NCBI RefSeq assembly: GCF_026241205.1
Contig: NZ_JAPFQM010000001.1
Span: forward strand, 1,612,001-1,676,000
Direction of reading: 5' to 3'
DNA: 64,000 nt
Source: Thermomicrobium sp. 4228-Ro
GTDB taxonomy: Bacteria > Chloroflexota > Chloroflexia > Thermomicrobiales > Thermomicrobiaceae
The notes beneath the pieces were generated by a model that saw only the letters and a list, made by a program, of their open reading frames with translations, ran no database searches and was not told where the DNA came from. The translations under genes and the position numbers were made by a program. Shown one piece after another: positions 39,509-45,686 of the stretch; position 1 is the first letter of the stretch, and each line of letters starts with the position of its first letter.

Positions 39509-40324
39509 TTATTCTCCGATGTCCTTGCCGATCTGTCGTGCCATCGCCCGATAGCCGGCGAAGTCGCCCAGTCCGGTCGCGTTCGCTCCGGGAACGACGA
39601 TGACGCTCGCTGAGATGAGATGCGCTTCTGGGCTGGCCAGGTGGGCACAGATGGCGCCGATGTCGTCCGGTTGCGCCCAGCGCCGGGCTGCGACGAGGCG
39701 CTCCGCCTGCGGCCCCATTTCCGCCCGCATCCGCCCGCTCAGGATGCCAGCCGGGAGCACTGCGTTGACCGTGATGTTGTACGAGTAGAACTCAGCAGCG
39801 AGTTGCCGGGTGAGACCGAGCAAGCCGCGCTTCGAGCTGGTGTAGCCGGCTCCCCCATTGAGGCTAGCGCGAAGCGCTGCGAGCGAGCCGATATTGATGA
39901 TCCGTCCGTACTGCTGTCGCATCATGTGCGGGAGTGCGGCACGGCTCATGTAGAAGGGGCCAGAGAGGTTGACCGCAATGTAGCTGTGCCATTCCTCATC
40001 CGACATCCGCTCGACCGCTGGCGACCGCCCGAGCCTCGCGGCGTTGTTCACCAGAATGTCGATTCGGCCATGTTGCTCGACCACTGTCTCGACCATCTCG
40101 CGAGCGCGTCGCGGGTCGGAGACATCGCCAGCGAGAACGAACGCCTGGCCACCCTGCTGGGTGATCTGTTCGACGGTCGCTCGCGCGTATTCTTCGTTCA
40201 AGTCGTTCACCGCCACGACGGCACCTTCGCGAGCGAGCACGCGGGCAATGCCAGCTCCGCCGCCTCCCAGCTCGCCGCCGCCCGCGCCAGTGACGAGCGC
40301 CACCAGGCCTGCCAACCGTCCCAT
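39509..40324 (-). CDS. Short-chain dehydrogenase/reductase, third of three
   Basis: A 271-residue NAD(P)-dependent SDR. The catalytic YTSSK follows GGAG, NNAA is present, and the serine is in INIGSLAALR. The nucleotide loop is unusual, TGAGGGELGGGGAGIA, with extra residues compared with TGxxxGIG. ATG 40324 follows GGGGAGAG. An ATG at 40342 that overlaps the upstream TGA (ATGA) is an alternative. Substrate unknown; context with CoA transferase suggests a hydroxyacyl compound. Confidence 0.88.
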   Translation of the reverse strand: MGRLAGLVALVTGAGGGELGGGGAGIARVLAREGAVVAVNDLNEEYARATVEQITQQGGQAFVLAGDVSDPRRAREMVETVVEQHGRIDILVNNAARLGRSPAVERMSDEEWHSYIAVNLSGPFYMSRAALPHMMRQQYGRIINIGSLAALRASLNGGAGYTSSKRGLLGLTRQLAAEFYSYNITVNAVLPAGILSGRMRAEMGPQAERLVAARRWAQPDDIGAICAHLASPEAHLISASVIVVPGANATGLGDFAGYRAMARQIGKDIGE

Positions 40325-40338
40325 CGTTCTCTCCCCCG

Positions 40339-41157
40339 TCATGCAAACGCTGCTTCCGGATCGTTCCGCGCTCCCGGCACTACGGAGGCCGCTCCGTCGA
40401 TCGGGATCGCGGCACCGGTGATGTACCCAGCCTCGTGGCTCGCTAGGAAGACGATGAGCGCTGCTACTTCTTCAGGTGTCCCAGCACGCAACGCTGGAAT
40501 TGTTTCGGCCAACCGGGAGATGCGCTCCTCACCCCACTCTACCGCGAGTTTGGGGGTCACGATGAAGCCGGGCAGGATCGCGTTGACGGTGATACCGTGC
40601 TGTGCCACCTCGATCGAGAGGTGACGAGTGAGGCCGTAGAGTGCTTCCTTGGTCGCGACGTACGCCACACCATTGAGGACGCTCGTCCGGATAGCGGTAA
40701 TGTTCGAGACGTGAATGATGCGGCCGAAACGGCGCTGGCGCATGTGACGGACAGCTGCCCGACTCAGGTAGAACGGAGCATGCACGTTGACTGCCAAGAC
40801 CGCTTCCCACTCGTCGTCCGTGACCCCGTCGGAGCGACGCCCGCTCCCGTGCGCCTCCGCCTTGTTGACCAGAATATCCAGTTGGCCGAATCGCTCGACC
40901 ACTGCCTGGACGAGTCGATCGACCAGTGCGGAATCGGTCACGTCAGCCGGAAAGCCCTCGACCGCGAAACCAGCCTGCCGGAGCTCCTCGACGGTCGCAG
41001 CAGTGCATTCGGCCGTACGATCGTTGACCGCAACGGTCGCGCCAGCCTGGGCGAGCGCGCGAGCGATGAACGGGCCGAGCCCGGCGCGCAACCCGCCGCC
41101 AGCACCGGTGACGAGAGCGACCATCCCCGTGAGGTCGCAGCCTTGCTGGGTCTGCAT
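40339..41157 (-). CDS. Short-chain dehydrogenase/reductase, second of three
   Basis: A 272-residue SDR with catalytic YVATK and ISNITAIR-like serine region (HVSNITAIRTS). The glycine motif TGAGGGLRAGLGPFIA again carries an insertion. The usual NNAG is changed to NKAE, which may alter cofactor positioning or substrate choice. It overlaps the next SDR region by a few bases and starts 31 bp after the first SDR stop. Confidence 0.87.
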   Translation of the reverse strand: MQTQQGCDLTGMVALVTGAGGGLRAGLGPFIARALAQAGATVAVNDRTAECTAATVEELRQAGFAVEGFPADVTDSALVDRLVQAVVERFGQLDILVNKAEAHGSGRRSDGVTDDEWEAVLAVNVHAPFYLSRAAVRHMRQRRFGRIIHVSNITAIRTSVLNGVAYVATKEALYGLTRHLSIEVAQHGITVNAILPGFIVTPKLAVEWGEERISRLAETIPALRAGTPEEVAALIVFLASHEAGYITGAAIPIDGAASVVPGARNDPEAAFA

Positions 41158-41188: not shown

Positions 41189-42004
41189 TCAGCCGATACC
41201 CTTGCGACTCCGCCGTGCGTACTCGACGAAGTTTCCGAGCGCACTTCCCAATCCGCGATCCAGCGGAATGGCTGCTCCGGAGATGAAGCCGACGTCGCGT
41301 CGTGCCAGGAAGGCGACCAGCTTACCGATCTCCTCCTCGGGATCGAGCGGGCCGAATTGTCGGTCAGTGCCCTGGAAAAGGTCTGGGCGGCGACGCAAGA
41401 TCGCCGGATTGCGGATGCCGGTCGGCAAGAGCACGTTGACCGTGATGCCGTAGGCAGCGAACTCGATGGCCATCTGTCGTGTTAGCCCGATGAGCCCGCT
41501 TTTGGCGGTGGTGTACGGTGCGCCACTGACGAAGCCGGTGCGGATACCGGCGAGCGAGCCGATGTTGACGATGCGCCCGAACCGTCGTGGAACCATGTGC
41601 TTGAGCGCTGCTCGACTCATGAAGAAAGGGCCGGACAGGTCGACCGCGGCCTGCCGGTGCCAGATGTCGTCGGGCAATCGCTCGATAGATGGTACCAGTC
41701 CGCCGAGTGCCGCATTGTTGACGAGAATGTCAATCTGGCCGAAGCGCTCGACTGTGGCCGTGATCATCTGCTCTGCGTCGCGTGAACGCGAGACGTCACC
41801 GACGATGCCCCATGCCTCGCCGCCGCGCTGCTGGATCTGGGTGACGGTCGCGGCGACGAATTCCTCGGTCAGGTCGTTCACGACGACACGAGCACCGTGC
41901 CGTGCGAGTGCCCGAGCGATTCCGGCTCCGCCGCCCCCGTCTTCACCACGGCCAGCTCCGGTGACGAAGGCGACCATGCCTTCCAGCCATCGCTCGTCCA
42001 TCAC
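41189..42004 (-). CDS. Short-chain dehydrogenase/reductase, first of three
   Basis: A 271-residue SDR with catalytic YTTAK, NNAALGG and the loop TGAGRGEDGGGGAGIA, matching the insertion in the third copy. It starts 63 bp after the stop of the GWTDGLP-motif gene, with a hairpin in between, so the SDR block may be transcribed at a different level from the upstream genes. An in-frame second Met follows the first directly. Confidence 0.88.
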   Translation of the reverse strand: MMDERWLEGMVAFVTGAGRGEDGGGGAGIARALARHGARVVVNDLTEEFVAATVTQIQQRGGEAWGIVGDVSRSRDAEQMITATVERFGQIDILVNNAALGGLVPSIERLPDDIWHRQAAVDLSGPFFMSRAALKHMVPRRFGRIVNIGSLAGIRTGFVSGAPYTTAKSGLIGLTRQMAIEFAAYGITVNVLLPTGIRNPAILRRRPDLFQGTDRQFGPLDPEEEIGKLVAFLARRDVGFISGAAIPLDRGLGSALGNFVEYARRSRKGIG

Positions 42005-42031
42005 GACTGATCCTCTCCGCGGCGAAGAAAG

Positions 42032-42058
42032 GGGAACCGGGCATCCAGCCCGGTTCCC
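42032..42058 (-). terminator. Attenuator-like hairpin inside the operon
   Basis: A perfect 11-bp inverted repeat (42032-42042 with 42048-42058), loop ATCCA, followed on the minus strand by CTTTCTTC. It lies just after the 42068 gene stop and before the SDR genes. Confidence 0.65.
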
Positions 42059-42067
42059 ACGGTTCCG

Positions 42068-43111
42068 TCATGCTTTGGCCCGGATCGGTACGGTGACCTG
42101 CTGTCCGATGAACGTGGGGCAGACGGTCGAGATCCCGGCATTCCGGGCTCCAGCGACGACGAGCAGGATCGTCTCCGGCGAATGAGCGAAGCGGACGAAC
42201 GCGTCGTCTGGCAGCGAGGGGTCGATCAGCGCGTCCTTGGCCAGTCGACGGAGCACCCCGGCTGGTCGCCCGAAGTGCTCCCAGAGGTGCTGACGAGCCT
42301 GCTCCTTGCTCCACCCCGCTTCGGCGATGAGCTGCGCATGCTCCGGCCCCAGGACGACGATCCCCGCGTGCCCACGCGGGGTCGGAAAGTAGGTGCCAGC
42401 GTAGGACATCGAATCGGCGATCGTCTCCAGGATAATTTCCGGTTGCTTCGAGTCGCGCTGCTCGACCTGCATGGTGCCGCGGACGAAGCCGACCGTGACC
42501 GTACTCTCATCCCGTGCAAAGCCCCGTTCGACGTGCAGTGGCTCCCAGGGGCTCTCTTCCTCGTTCTCGGCGATGCAGAGACTCAACTTCCCCGGTTGTC
42601 CCTGCGTCGACTGGTCGAACTCGTGCGGCCGAATCCCCAGCGCGTTCATGATCACGAGCCGGATCGCCCGCCCGATAGTCACGTTCGGCCGGTCGCCCGG
42701 GCTGAACGCGTTGTCCCGGCTGTTGAACCCCAGTCGTGTGCGGATCGGCCCGTTGACCACCACGAAGACCGCTTGCCCGGTCGTGCTCTGGAGCAACCCA
42801 CGACTCCCGGGGAGGCGGTTCAAGGCGTCCAGCGCCGCGAGCACGACGGGAAAGTACTCCGGTTTGCAGCCAGCCATGACCGCATTGGCCGCCGCCAGGC
42901 GGAGGGTGCACTTGCGGCCGAGATGTTCCTGCTCGATGACGACCTCCTCGGGATCGCGGTCGACCTGGGCCAGGAACTCCTCGACGAATTCCTCAGCGGG
43001 CGGAACGACGGGCAGACCATCCGTCCAGCCGCGCTCGTAGCAATACTCGATCGCCTCGCGGGCGTGCCGCACGGCCTCCAGCGTTGGCTCAGCCGTTCGC
43101 TGCACGCTCAT
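42068..43111 (-). CDS. UGSC-associated protein with GWTDGLPVVPP motif
   Basis: A 347-residue soluble protein. The N-terminal motif ERGWTDGLPVVPP (residues 26-38) and the block NAVMAGCKPEYFPVV (76-90, with Cys82) are features I associate with proteins found beside or fused to UGSC-family (seleno)proteins; this link is from memory of the family, not from a search. Several further Cys residues are present (68, 24), but no recognised catalytic centre. The start overlaps the UGSC gene stop by 23 bp, indicating translational coupling and probably a joint complex. Reaction unknown. Confidence 0.78.
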   Translation of the reverse strand: MSVQRTAEPTLEAVRHAREAIEYCYERGWTDGLPVVPPAEEFVEEFLAQVDRDPEEVVIEQEHLGRKCTLRLAAANAVMAGCKPEYFPVVLAALDALNRLPGSRGLLQSTTGQAVFVVVNGPIRTRLGFNSRDNAFSPGDRPNVTIGRAIRLVIMNALGIRPHEFDQSTQGQPGKLSLCIAENEEESPWEPLHVERGFARDESTVTVGFVRGTMQVEQRDSKQPEIILETIADSMSYAGTYFPTPRGHAGIVVLGPEHAQLIAEAGWSKEQARQHLWEHFGRPAGVLRRLAKDALIDPSLPDDAFVRFAHSPETILLVVAGARNAGISTVCPTFIGQQVTVPIRAKA

Positions 43112-43658
43112 GCGTTTCCTCCCCGGCTGCTTCCTCGACGCCCAGCAAGCGCAGGACGGCAGGCAGCACCTGCTCGGCCCGTTGCCGCACCTCTTCCGGG
43201 CTCAGGCTGCTGATCGGGTGGGGGATGACGGCGTAGGGATACCCCGGCATCCCCTGTGTCTGGGCCATCGCGTCTGCCGTCGCCCGGAAGACTTCCGTGA
43301 TGATCGGAGCAGCGGGAACGCCGACTTCCTCGAACCGGATCGCATCGGCCACACTGGCCGCGCTGCAGGACCCTCAGTCCCCGACCGCAGCGATCGCGAA
43401 GTCACAGCGCTCCTTGAGCTCGGCAACCGCCGTCGGGTCGATCGGTACCGAGGCGTTGGGCTTGCGCTGCATGACGACTTCCGCAACGCCATACCGCTCG
43501 CGGAGCAGTTCGCCGATGGCCTGGAGCAGGAGATCGGCATTCTTCTTGCCATTGTCGATCAGGCAGACGCGTGCACCGCGCAGCGAGCGTCGGGTGCGCG
43601 CCGCGCGCGTTTTCGTGGCGAGTCCCGTTTGTCCGGTCGGATCGACGAGCACTGGCAT
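43089..43658 (-). CDS. UGSC-family probable selenoprotein (in-frame UGA = Sec95)
   Basis: The two open frames 43374-43658 and 43089-43352 are in the same phase and separated by a single UGA at 43374-43376. Reading it as selenocysteine gives AVGD-U-GSCSA at residue 95, exactly the U-G-S-C motif for which the UGSC family is named, with Cys98 as partner. The upstream part has VCLIDNGKKNADLLLQ (near residue 31), the downstream part a conserved helix-strand pattern, and together they form one 189-residue protein. A hairpin with a GUG loop lies 13 nt after the UGA. The family is redox-type with unknown substrate. It is co-transcribed with a CoA transferase, a CxxC NifU-like protein and SDRs. Confidence 0.82.
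43346..43360 (-). promoter_or_regulatory. Candidate bacterial SECIS hairpin
   Basis: On the minus strand, 13 nt after the UGA, CGGCCA and TGGCCG form a 6-bp stem closed by a GUG loop. The loop begins 19 nt after the UGA and has G first, both within the published bSECIS constraints. The stem is shorter than that of E. coli fdhF, so SelB binding is unproven. Confidence 0.5.
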
Positions 43659-43660
43659 GA

Positions 43661-43930
43661 TCAGCTCTCCTCGGGTAGTCGCTTCTCGAGTCGAATTTCA
43701 CGCAGAGACGGATAGACGGGTGCGATCGCCTGTTGCAGCATCGCGTGCAGCAGCTGGTCCGGCACCAGGCAGTCCAGGCACGCGTCGGGCAGTGCCTGAA
43801 GGACCAGCTCGACGATTCCGTCATCCGTCACATGCTCGACCCGCAATTCGAATCCATCCGGCGCGAGACCAGCGCGGATCTGGTCGAGCGCCCGGTCGAT
43901 CTCTTGCACGACAGCTGGTGATGCACTCAT
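43661..43930 (-). CDS. Small NifU-like CxxC protein
   Basis: An 89-residue protein with the pattern of a NifU C-terminal (Fe-S scaffold) domain: RAGLAPDGFELRVEHVTDDG, a beta strand, then CLDC (residues 51-54) and a helix. The usual NifU motif is CxxC preceded by G(A/S)C; here the preceding part is DACLDC, giving two cysteines in CxxC. It could bind a metal cluster or act as a dithiol redox partner for the adjacent UGSC protein. ATG 43930 follows GGAGGG; the UGSC ATG comes 2 nt after the stop. Confidence 0.75.
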   Translation of the reverse strand: MSASPAVVQEIDRALDQIRAGLAPDGFELRVEHVTDDGIVELVLQALPDACLDCLVPDQLLHAMLQQAIAPVYPSLREIRLEKRLPEES

Positions 43931-43986
43931 CGCTTCGGTCTGCCCTCCTTCCGTATGCTCATCGAGCCCGCCGTTCCGTCTGCGAA

Positions 43987-44679
43987 TCACGGGGCGAGCA
44001 ACGCAGCTCCGGCGAATTCGGCCGGGATCTCCATCGTGCGCACCGTGGGCGGGATGGTCAATGGCGCTCCGGTGCGTGCCACGACATCCTCGATCGTCAC
44101 ACCGGGTGCGACTTCCTCGAGGACGAGTTGCTCGCCTTCGACCGAAAGTACCGCGAGATCGGTGTAAATGCGCCGCACGCAACGCGCGGCCGTCAACGGA
44201 TAGGTGCATTCCTCGACGATCTTCGGTTCCCCCTGATCGGTCGTGTGCATCGTCGCCACCCACACGCGTTGGGCTCCCACCGCGATATCCATCGCACCAC
44301 CGACGCCTGGAACGCGAGGCCCGGGGATGCGCCAGCTGGCGAGATCGCCCCGGCGCGAGACCTGGAGCGCACCGAGGATAGCGTGTGTCAGATGGCCGCC
44401 GCGGATCATGGCGAACGAAAGCGCATGGTCGAACACGCTCGCCCCCGGGATGAGCGTGACATAATCCCCGTTCGCGTTGACCAGGTCGGGATCGACCTCA
44501 TCCGGTCGGGCCTTCGGTCCGGCTCCGAGGATGCCGTTCTCGCTGTGGATGAGAATCGTCTTCCCTGGAGGGAGGAATCGCGCGACCAGAGACGGTGTGC
44601 CAGTGCCGAGGTTGACGAAACTCTCATCCGGGAGATCCTGGGCGATGCGGTAGGCGATTCCTTCACGCGTCAACGGCAT
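43987..44679 (-). CDS. scoB: CoA-transferase subunit B (3-oxoacid CoA-transferase family I)
   Basis: A 230-residue subunit with the catalytic glutamate motif HSENGILGAGP, an oxyanion region GGAMDIAVGAQRVWVAT, and the C-terminal FAGAA-type end. Together with subunit A it moves CoA from an acyl-CoA to a 3-oxo or related acid. ATG 44679 follows GGTGAGG, 7 nt after the subunit A stop. The acceptor acid is not known here. Confidence 0.9.
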   Translation of the reverse strand: MPLTREGIAYRIAQDLPDESFVNLGTGTPSLVARFLPPGKTILIHSENGILGAGPKARPDEVDPDLVNANGDYVTLIPGASVFDHALSFAMIRGGHLTHAILGALQVSRRGDLASWRIPGPRVPGVGGAMDIAVGAQRVWVATMHTTDQGEPKIVEECTYPLTAARCVRRIYTDLAVLSVEGEQLVLEEVAPGVTIEDVVARTGAPLTIPPTVRTMEIPAEFAGAALLAP

Positions 44680-44686
44680 AGCTGCC

Positions 44687-45382
44687 TCACCGTACTTCAG
44701 GCGTTGTGCGACGAACCCAGTCGCGCGGTCCTTCGACCACGCGATCGACGAAGATACAGGGCGTTTCGATCTCTTCCGGTGACAACGCGCCGACCGGTAC
44801 GATTTCGTCGACTTCGACGATGACCGTGTTGGCCGCCGTCGCCATGATGGGGTTGAAATTGCGCATGGTGCGCCGGTAGACGAGGTTCCCCCACCGGTCG
44901 GCACGATAGGCCTTGATGAAGGCGTAGTCGGCACGGAGCGGTAATTCGAAGACATAGGGTCGACCGTCGATGATGCGCACTTCCTTGCCTTCTGTCAGCT
45001 CGGTGCCGACGCCGGTCGGTGTGTAGAAGCCGCCGAGCCCCGCGCCGCCGGCGCGAATCCGCTCGACGAAGGTGCCCTGGGGAAGGACTTCGAGTTCGAG
45101 TTCTCCAGCGAGATATTTCTCGCGTACGGCCGTCGCACCGGGATGGGTCGGGAACGACGTAATCAGCTTCCGGACAGCTCCGTCGGCGATCAGTCCGCCG
45201 ATACCGTCTTCTTCGGTGCCACCACCGCAATAAATCAGAATCAGATCGCGCAGCTTGCGTCGGCGGAGCGCCTTGACCAGGTTCACGGGAATACCAGGCG
45301 GCCCGAATCCGCCGATCATGATCGAGGCACCGTTCGGGATATCGGCCACAGCCTCGTCACACGTCGCTACGACTCTGTCCAT
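44687..45382 (-). CDS. scoA: CoA-transferase subunit A (3-oxoacid CoA-transferase family I)
   Basis: A 231-residue subunit. The CoA-binding motif GGFGPPGIPVNLVKAL, the TSFPTHPGA turn, LPQGTFVERIRAGGAGLGGFYTPTGVGT and NFNPIMATAANTVIVEVDE are typical for SctA/PcaI-like subunits. First gene of the operon, 45 bp downstream of a strong promoter. Its presence suggests the UGSC/SDR proteins handle a CoA-activated or acid intermediate, which is inference. Confidence 0.92.
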   Translation of the reverse strand: MDRVVATCDEAVADIPNGASIMIGGFGPPGIPVNLVKALRRRKLRDLILIYCGGGTEEDGIGGLIADGAVRKLITSFPTHPGATAVREKYLAGELELEVLPQGTFVERIRAGGAGLGGFYTPTGVGTELTEGKEVRIIDGRPYVFELPLRADYAFIKAYRADRWGNLVYRRTMRNFNPIMATAANTVIVEVDEIVPVGALSPEEIETPCIFVDRVVEGPRDWVRRTTPEVR

Positions 45383-45686
45383 CGCACCGGACTTTCCGTT
45401 TAAGGATTAACTCAGCGACTAGCTCGATCATACGGGTACCGGACCGGTCTGTCAAGCCGGGGCACTCCAGCCGACCGTCCGACACCGCAGGGGTGCGCGA
45501 CCCGGCGCGACTGTGCTGAGAGGGCTCGCTGGGACTGGAGGCGAGGCGGTCTGTCGGATCGGTGCGGCTGGCTCGTACATCCGGCCCGGCAGGACCACGC
45601 AGCGCGAGCGATGCGGGGTCGTGCCCTGTCTCCTCGGGTGAGCCAGTTGCTTCAGGGTAGAATCGGCTCGGTAAGGAGTGCTCATC
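45383..45686. other. Divergent intergenic region between the CoA-transferase operon and the helicase
   Basis: About 304 bp without a supported gene. It holds the operon promoter at 45427-45455 (minus) and a TAGAAT -10 candidate at 45658-45663 (plus) with a poor -35 for the helicase. A small open frame on the minus strand has no ribosome site. Confidence 0.6.
45427..45455 (-). promoter_or_regulatory. Near-consensus promoter of the CoA-transferase/UGSC operon
   Basis: Perfect TTGACA (45450-45455), a 17-bp spacer and TATGAT (45427-45432) on the minus strand, with the predicted start ~38 nt before the subunit A ATG. The closest match to the sigma-70 consensus in the window, so the operon is probably expressed at a substantial level. 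Confidence 0.8.

Follow-up and report, generated by a model that had tools for sequence, protein, structure and literature searches.

The gene located at positions 43089 to 43658 of the window (the whole stretch of 64,000 nucleotides of Thermomicrobium sp. 4228-Ro that was analysed) is very probably, from sequence comparisons, a true UGSC-family selenoprotein gene, and its product would be one half of a two-component enzyme whose other half is an adjacent protein of 347 residues. The name UGSC refers to the UGSC-containing protein of marine metagenomes (PMC2398784, UGSC passages). The family accounts for 8.2% of the selenoprotein genes of marine metagenomes and is among the commonest there (PMC9402790, UGSC passage). 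No function of UGSC proteins was found in these passages of the UGSC literature. The features that carry the argument are the following.

43089 to 43658, minus strand: UGSC-family selenoprotein coding sequence, Sec95-Gly-Ser-Cys98 (frame with TGA read as U; PF24696; NF041046).
43374 to 43376, minus strand: UGA codon, putative selenocysteine (Sec), residue 95 (sequence; TGA at the aligned column of relatives).
43346 to 43360, minus strand: putative bSECIS hairpin CGGCCA-GUG-UGGCCG, +14 to +28 after the UGA (covariation).
42068 to 43111, minus strand: partner protein, 347 residues (open reading frame that co-occurs with and adjoins UGSC).

When UGA is read as U, a single unbroken frame of 189 residues plus stop extends from an ATG at 43658 to a TGA stop at 43089-43091. 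The coordinates given by the initial annotation are correct, and the strand, which it left unstated, is the minus strand. The annotation had also described a UGA at 43374-43376 that interrupts a same-phase frame and places U-G-S-C at residues 95-98; the frame read with TGA as U agrees with this, the context being AVGD-U95-GSC98-SAAS. ORF calling with table 11 cuts the gene into 43374-43658 (94 residues) and 43089-43352. Membership of the UGSC family, likewise claimed beforehand, is borne out by two models, both scoring above their curated cut-offs: PF24696 (Pfam UGSC; E 1e-61, 208.5 bits for a cut-off of 25), whose domain spans the UGA, and NF041046 (NCBIfam UGSC_fam; 164.2 bits for a cut-off of 125). 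Judged by these matches, the protein is a typical representative of an already described selenoprotein family. The described family (PF24696 / NF041046; PMC2398784, UGSC passages) is the same sequence family, with Sec in UGSC, a bSECIS and Sec predominant, and no difference was found between it and the protein analysed here.

A UGSC frame with one TGA is found in five of the seven genomes of the genus, including that of the window; the two genomes that lack it are 54% and 99% complete. The latter (G004) carries selA and lacks both UGSC and the partner, so its Sec machinery presumably serves other proteins. Over codons 96-172, the numbers of synonymous and nonsynonymous codons are respectively 26 and 1 (congener G005), 30 and 3 (G001), 35 and 7 (G006), 37 and 7 (G002). 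The codons 99-105, which span the hairpin, show 0, 0, 1 and 1 changes in the four congener comparisons. Such coding selection 3′ of the UGA implies a UGSC product longer than 94 residues.

The sel genes, whose search in the same genome had been proposed by the initial annotation, are all present in the genome of the window (3.07 Mb, 99.89% complete). tRNA-Sec: contig C1:65290, 73 bits, reported by ARAGORN as SeC with anticodon tca. SelA: 548 bits. SelB: 359 bits, with two wing domains. SelD: 357 bits, with one in-frame TGA (SCAG-U-AGK). SelD is thus itself a selenoprotein; its gene (C1:1677655-1678590, L026) lies about 1.7 kb past the end of the window.

TGA occupies the Sec column in 87 of 91 aligned rows. 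This first set was derived from 93 sources, two of which (L038 and L163) are not represented; L144, an additional match in another frame with a gap at the column, was dropped. The 91 rows include paralogues and a fragment, L162 (TGC), that is apparently a false alignment. The other rows that differ encode Cys (TGT in L138, G431:C10), Thr (ACC in L159, G315:C21) or Met (ATG in L161, G314:C145), and are possibly converted or decaying. Two of the 91 rows thus have neither Sec nor Cys, which indicates that some copies function without them or decay. In a second set, taken from named genomes (best 80 of 578 matches) and overlapping the first by at least one genome (L164 / G006), TGA is found in 82 of 84 rows; the remaining two, L170 and L171, have TGC and come from MAGs titled Thermomonosporaceae and Streptosporangiaceae. 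Neither the Sec column (U written as C) nor Cys98 varies in a 33-row family alignment, in keeping with the earlier placing of the motif at residue 95. The retention of TGA agrees with the 255 selenoproteins and 21 Cys homologues given for UGSC in Table 2 of PMC2398784 (table and UGSC passages). Some genomes of the phylum carry large families of UGSC paralogues (G279, 12 matches; G266, 8; G431, 7); 26 of these 27 matches have one TGA.

The 6-bp hairpin with a GUG loop that had been reported 13 nt past the UGA is present at 43346-43360, and its loop begins at +20 after the UGA. The loops of bSECIS elements lie 16-37 nt after the UGA. A bSECIS is expected to have a small apical loop that contains a guanosine (PMC1088965, bSECIS passage), as the UGSC hairpin does. 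Covariation was counted on distinct sequences: the 87 TGA rows correspond to 84 of them, 69 of GSC type, which were retained, and 15 of STC type, which were excluded. In the 69 sequences, the six pairs are formed in 89.1% of cells, changes on both sides are found in 54 cells for 14.2 expected by shuffling, and the covariation score is 0.422 for 0.159 in shuffled data, a value equalled by none of 500 shuffles. Shuffling leaves the relatedness of the sequences in place, so the control with slid registers matters; it gives scores of 0.096 at most. Of the five measures, one alone is unremarkable, the count of pairs in which both sides have changed (5 for 4.0 expected; 144 of 500 shuffles give at least as many).

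Taken by itself, the window sequence would leave the hairpin unconvincing, because the folding energy of this single sequence is no better than that of shuffles (z -0.52 and z -0.40); by single-sequence folding, the stretch that follows the UGA in L063 folds otherwise. In the second set (best 80 of 578 matches; one of the 84 rows, too short, was left out), 96.5% of pairs are formed over 77 distinct TGA sites: all six pairs in 64 sites, five in 12 and two in one. In each of the two TGC-bearing relatives, three of the six pairs are formed. Conversely, the paralogue L138 (TGT) retains five of six, judged by eye, and loss of the codon is therefore not always coupled to loss of the stem. In the 15 STC-type sequences, the six-pair register breaks at two pairs; by eye, they have a 4-bp stem and a 4-nt loop. 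The search of Rfam over 42000-45500 gave one match only, regarded as chance.

According to the preferred reading, SelB together with Sec-tRNA(UCA) would bind the hairpin just 3′ of the UGA, and Sec would be inserted at residue 95. That selenocysteine is made here, as the initial annotation had proposed, is supported by the sel genes, by the conservation of the UGA and of the hairpin and by the coding selection. The UGA could instead be an ordinary stop or a sequencing error, the frame beyond it being accidental or a separate gene. TGA does end 7 of the 11 genes checked in the region, UGSC included; against this stand the UGA shared by five genomes of the genus, the nearly all-synonymous drift 3′ of it, the family domain that crosses it and the covariation of the hairpin, and this explanation is regarded as extremely improbable. 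Decoding of the UGA as an amino acid other than Sec, through suppression or codon reassignment, is given an equally negligible probability. No evidence supporting it was found, neighbouring genes are closed by TGA, and the use of this codon as the normal stop of those seven genes indicates that there is no wholesale reassignment of the code. The genome also encodes the Sec machinery, and the changed codons lead to Cys in three cases (TGC in L170 and L171, TGT in L138), although to Thr in L159 and to Met in L161.

The start codon of the partner gene lies within the 3′ end of the UGSC gene (23-bp overlap, 43089-43111). No Pfam or NCBIfam family was matched by the partner protein at E values up to 10. 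Among 400 genomes of the phylum, UGSC is found in 41, the partner in 41 and both in 40 (42 with either); UGSC occurs without the partner in G379 and the partner without UGSC in G223. A partner match lies within 1.2 kb of at least 72 of 88 UGSC matches, 71 of them on the same strand (up to five partner and eight UGSC candidates were scored per genome; 72 of 88 is a lower bound). Orientation among the 72 pairs: partner 3′ of UGSC in 46 and 5′ in 25, on the same strand; opposite strand in one. At this locus, the 23-bp overlap could couple partner translation to read-through of the UGA, but such coupling cannot be general, because the partner is 5′ of UGSC in 25 of the 72 pairs. In named genomes, UGSC is found at 76 of 80 partner loci (best 80 of 578 matches), whose record titles include Proteobacteria, Actinomycetes, Rokubacteria and Bacillus piscicola.

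UGSC and the partner form one frame in L085 when the UGA is read through. Thirteen of the 400 genomes hold partner open frames of exactly 449 residues, a length suggestive of this fusion in further STC-type members. A fusion of UGSC to a domain named Unknown_1 has been described (PMC2398784, UGSC passages); as in L085, a conserved domain is joined to UGSC, the two cases being compared by description only. The predicted model of the partner (pLDDT 84) has no clear fold match by Foldseek or VIA-align (VIA-align Z at most 6.5). Two candidates were rejected for the partner. Class I fumarate hydratase: ten Foldseek rows with E below 0.001, but query TM of 0.25-0.28, from which no function was drawn. 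HisF-type chains, found by searching the PDB by sequence: best E 0.00079, over the last quarter only, not trusted.

The other genes that surround the pair are the following.

43661 to 43930, minus strand: small open reading frame of about 89 residues, 5′ of UGSC (86-92% identity in four congeners, same order); no Pfam family was found for it.
43987 to 44679, minus strand: 3-oxoacid CoA-transferase subunit B-like gene (TIGR02428, 283.1 bits for a cut-off of 243.55); the start is approximate, the longest open reading frame extending to 44955.
44687 to 45382, minus strand: 3-oxoacid CoA-transferase subunit A-like gene (TIGR02429, 284.9 bits for a cut-off of 128.5).
41189 to 42004, minus strand: short-chain dehydrogenase/reductase (SDR), first of three 3′ genes (PF13561, E 2.4e-44).
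40339 to 41157 and 39509 to 40342, minus strand: second and third SDR genes (tblastn likeness to the first).

The order of the two CoA-transferase genes is kept in four congeners. Three SDR genes are found at the same place in all three congener loci that reach that far, the first of them just 38-45% identical in two of the three. The CoA-transferase pair and the three SDR genes are oriented alike, and their order is kept in congeners; this suggests a catabolic role of the UGSC-partner pair, which is put forward as possible though rather doubtful. Outside the congeners, the surroundings of the pair differ. No third gene was found to recur clearly near it in 24 loci, where 133 of 135 ORFs selected from the 230 obtained by rough ORF calling were scanned; the commonest Pfam families occur six times.

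On profile evidence, UGSC is a distant homologue of the Sec-bearing C-terminal domain of GrdB (selenoprotein B of glycine/sarcosine/betaine reductase) and PrdB (D-proline reductase). After UGSC's own model, the five NCBIfam models matched by the most of 33 UGSC members are all of GrdB, GrdF, GrdH or PrdB types; they match 16, 11, 7, 4 and 4 members, with best E values of 7.2e-5 to 5.8e-4 that are individually marginal. Among them, the GrdB model TIGR01917 matches 16 of the 33 members (best E 2.5e-4) and the PrdB model TIGR04483 matches four (best E 5.8e-4). Alignment by hhalign of UGSC with a 17-row GrdB/PrdB set gives a score of 61.2 and a probability of 95.3 over 91 columns, with Sec on Sec. 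The score is 52.4 when Sec is masked and 39.9 when all four UxxC columns are masked. Controls: 18.8 at most for 100 column shuffles, 20.4 for the reversed set, 11.4 for the partner. UGSC shares with GrdB (PF07355) and PrdB (TIGR04483) the aligned Sec, UxxC, a G-[IL]-[PS] segment and an H-P or F-P motif. TGA is found at the Sec place in all 17 loci of GrdB/PrdB type that were read (20 were fetched for PF07355; L094, L095 and L105, in which the ORF pick missed the gene, were left out). For 12 of the 17 loci read, the start of the best hairpin lies 11-13 nt past the UGA, the figure for the UGSC gene of the window being 14, a comparison for which no null was computed.

The N-terminal part of GrdB is absent from UGSC, and PF07355 has no match in the genome of the window at E 1e-3. 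With the models tried, no relation of the partner of UGSC to GrdE/PrdA was found: PF09338 (GrdE/PrdA type) has no match among 18 partner members at E values up to 10, and the GrdB analogy consequently covers one subunit only. Among the 33 UGSC members, PF09338 was matched once (E 0.083), which is regarded as chance. Many genomes of the phylum hold short proteins whose match to PF07355 is limited to roughly its last 140 positions. The nine that were read (L096-L104) end at a TGA followed by an in-frame P-x-C and thus look like PrdB-type selenoproteins shortened by a plain ORF call.

The AlphaFold model of UGSC (U given as Cys; mean pLDDT 90.4) has five alternating strand-helix units; Sec95 is placed after strand 3, where the next helix starts. 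The prediction is of an alternating alpha/beta fold, in contrast to the published suggestion of a thioredoxin fold. The fold search gave modest scores: Foldseek reached E 3.3e-4 at best, with query TM values under 0.5, and the highest Z, 11.1, was obtained with a designed protein; the matches listed are mostly of flavodoxin, lumazine synthase, receiver and Rossmann types. Searching the PDB by sequence gave a best E of 0.064 for UGSC and of 0.092 for the GrdB/PrdB set, the last rows of the latter being two glutaredoxins (E 0.89 and 1). The literature view of UGSC, that of a generic thiol-disulfide oxidoreductase with a thioredoxin-like fold, in which the neighbour would be a redox accessory, is regarded as unlikely. 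It is favoured by the UxxC motif and by a partner homologue (L080:5907-7454) that carries a fused N-terminal AhpC/TSA peroxiredoxin-like domain. The predicted topology, whose five strand-helix units are not in thioredoxin order, argues against it, as do the listed fold matches, mostly to other alpha/beta folds. No thioredoxin family is included in the 17 Pfam families matched by the 33 members, and the profile score is 14.9 against a Trx-type domain (a control made of one single sequence), versus 61.2 against GrdB/PrdB.

The two-component reading, preferred here, would assign the Sec subunit to UGSC and the role of regular partner to the 347-residue protein. By analogy with GrdB, Sec95, paired with Cys98, would attack a substrate that the partner helps to bind. 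The substrate would be cleaved reductively, as the GrdB/PrdB domain does with glycine, betaine or proline, and could then enter a catabolic route of acyl-CoA type. GrdB-like chemistry of UGSC is given a little less than an even chance. Relatives of GrdB have been proposed for the cleavage of fluoroacetate (PMC10838667, abstract).

The partner gene and the link to GrdB may be new. In the UGSC literature passages, no relation to GrdB and no partner gene besides the fusion were found; earlier statements could exist in Mukai et al. 2016 (UGSC-motif proteins, Geodermatophilaceae). UGSC and its partner could represent a widespread, unrecognised class of two-component selenoenzymes, a cousin of glycine and proline reductases with a different second subunit, present in up to 12 copies per genome in some members of the phylum; the pair would use Sec to cleave small organic substrates reductively in organisms other than the classical amino-acid fermenters. 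This wider proposal is plausible, with the balance leaning somewhat against it.

The gene provides an example of truncation at residue 94 by plain ORF calling. The predicted fold puts in question the thioredoxin-fold label of UGSC. The regular partner and the link to GrdB/PrdB would turn an orphan family into a testable enzyme.
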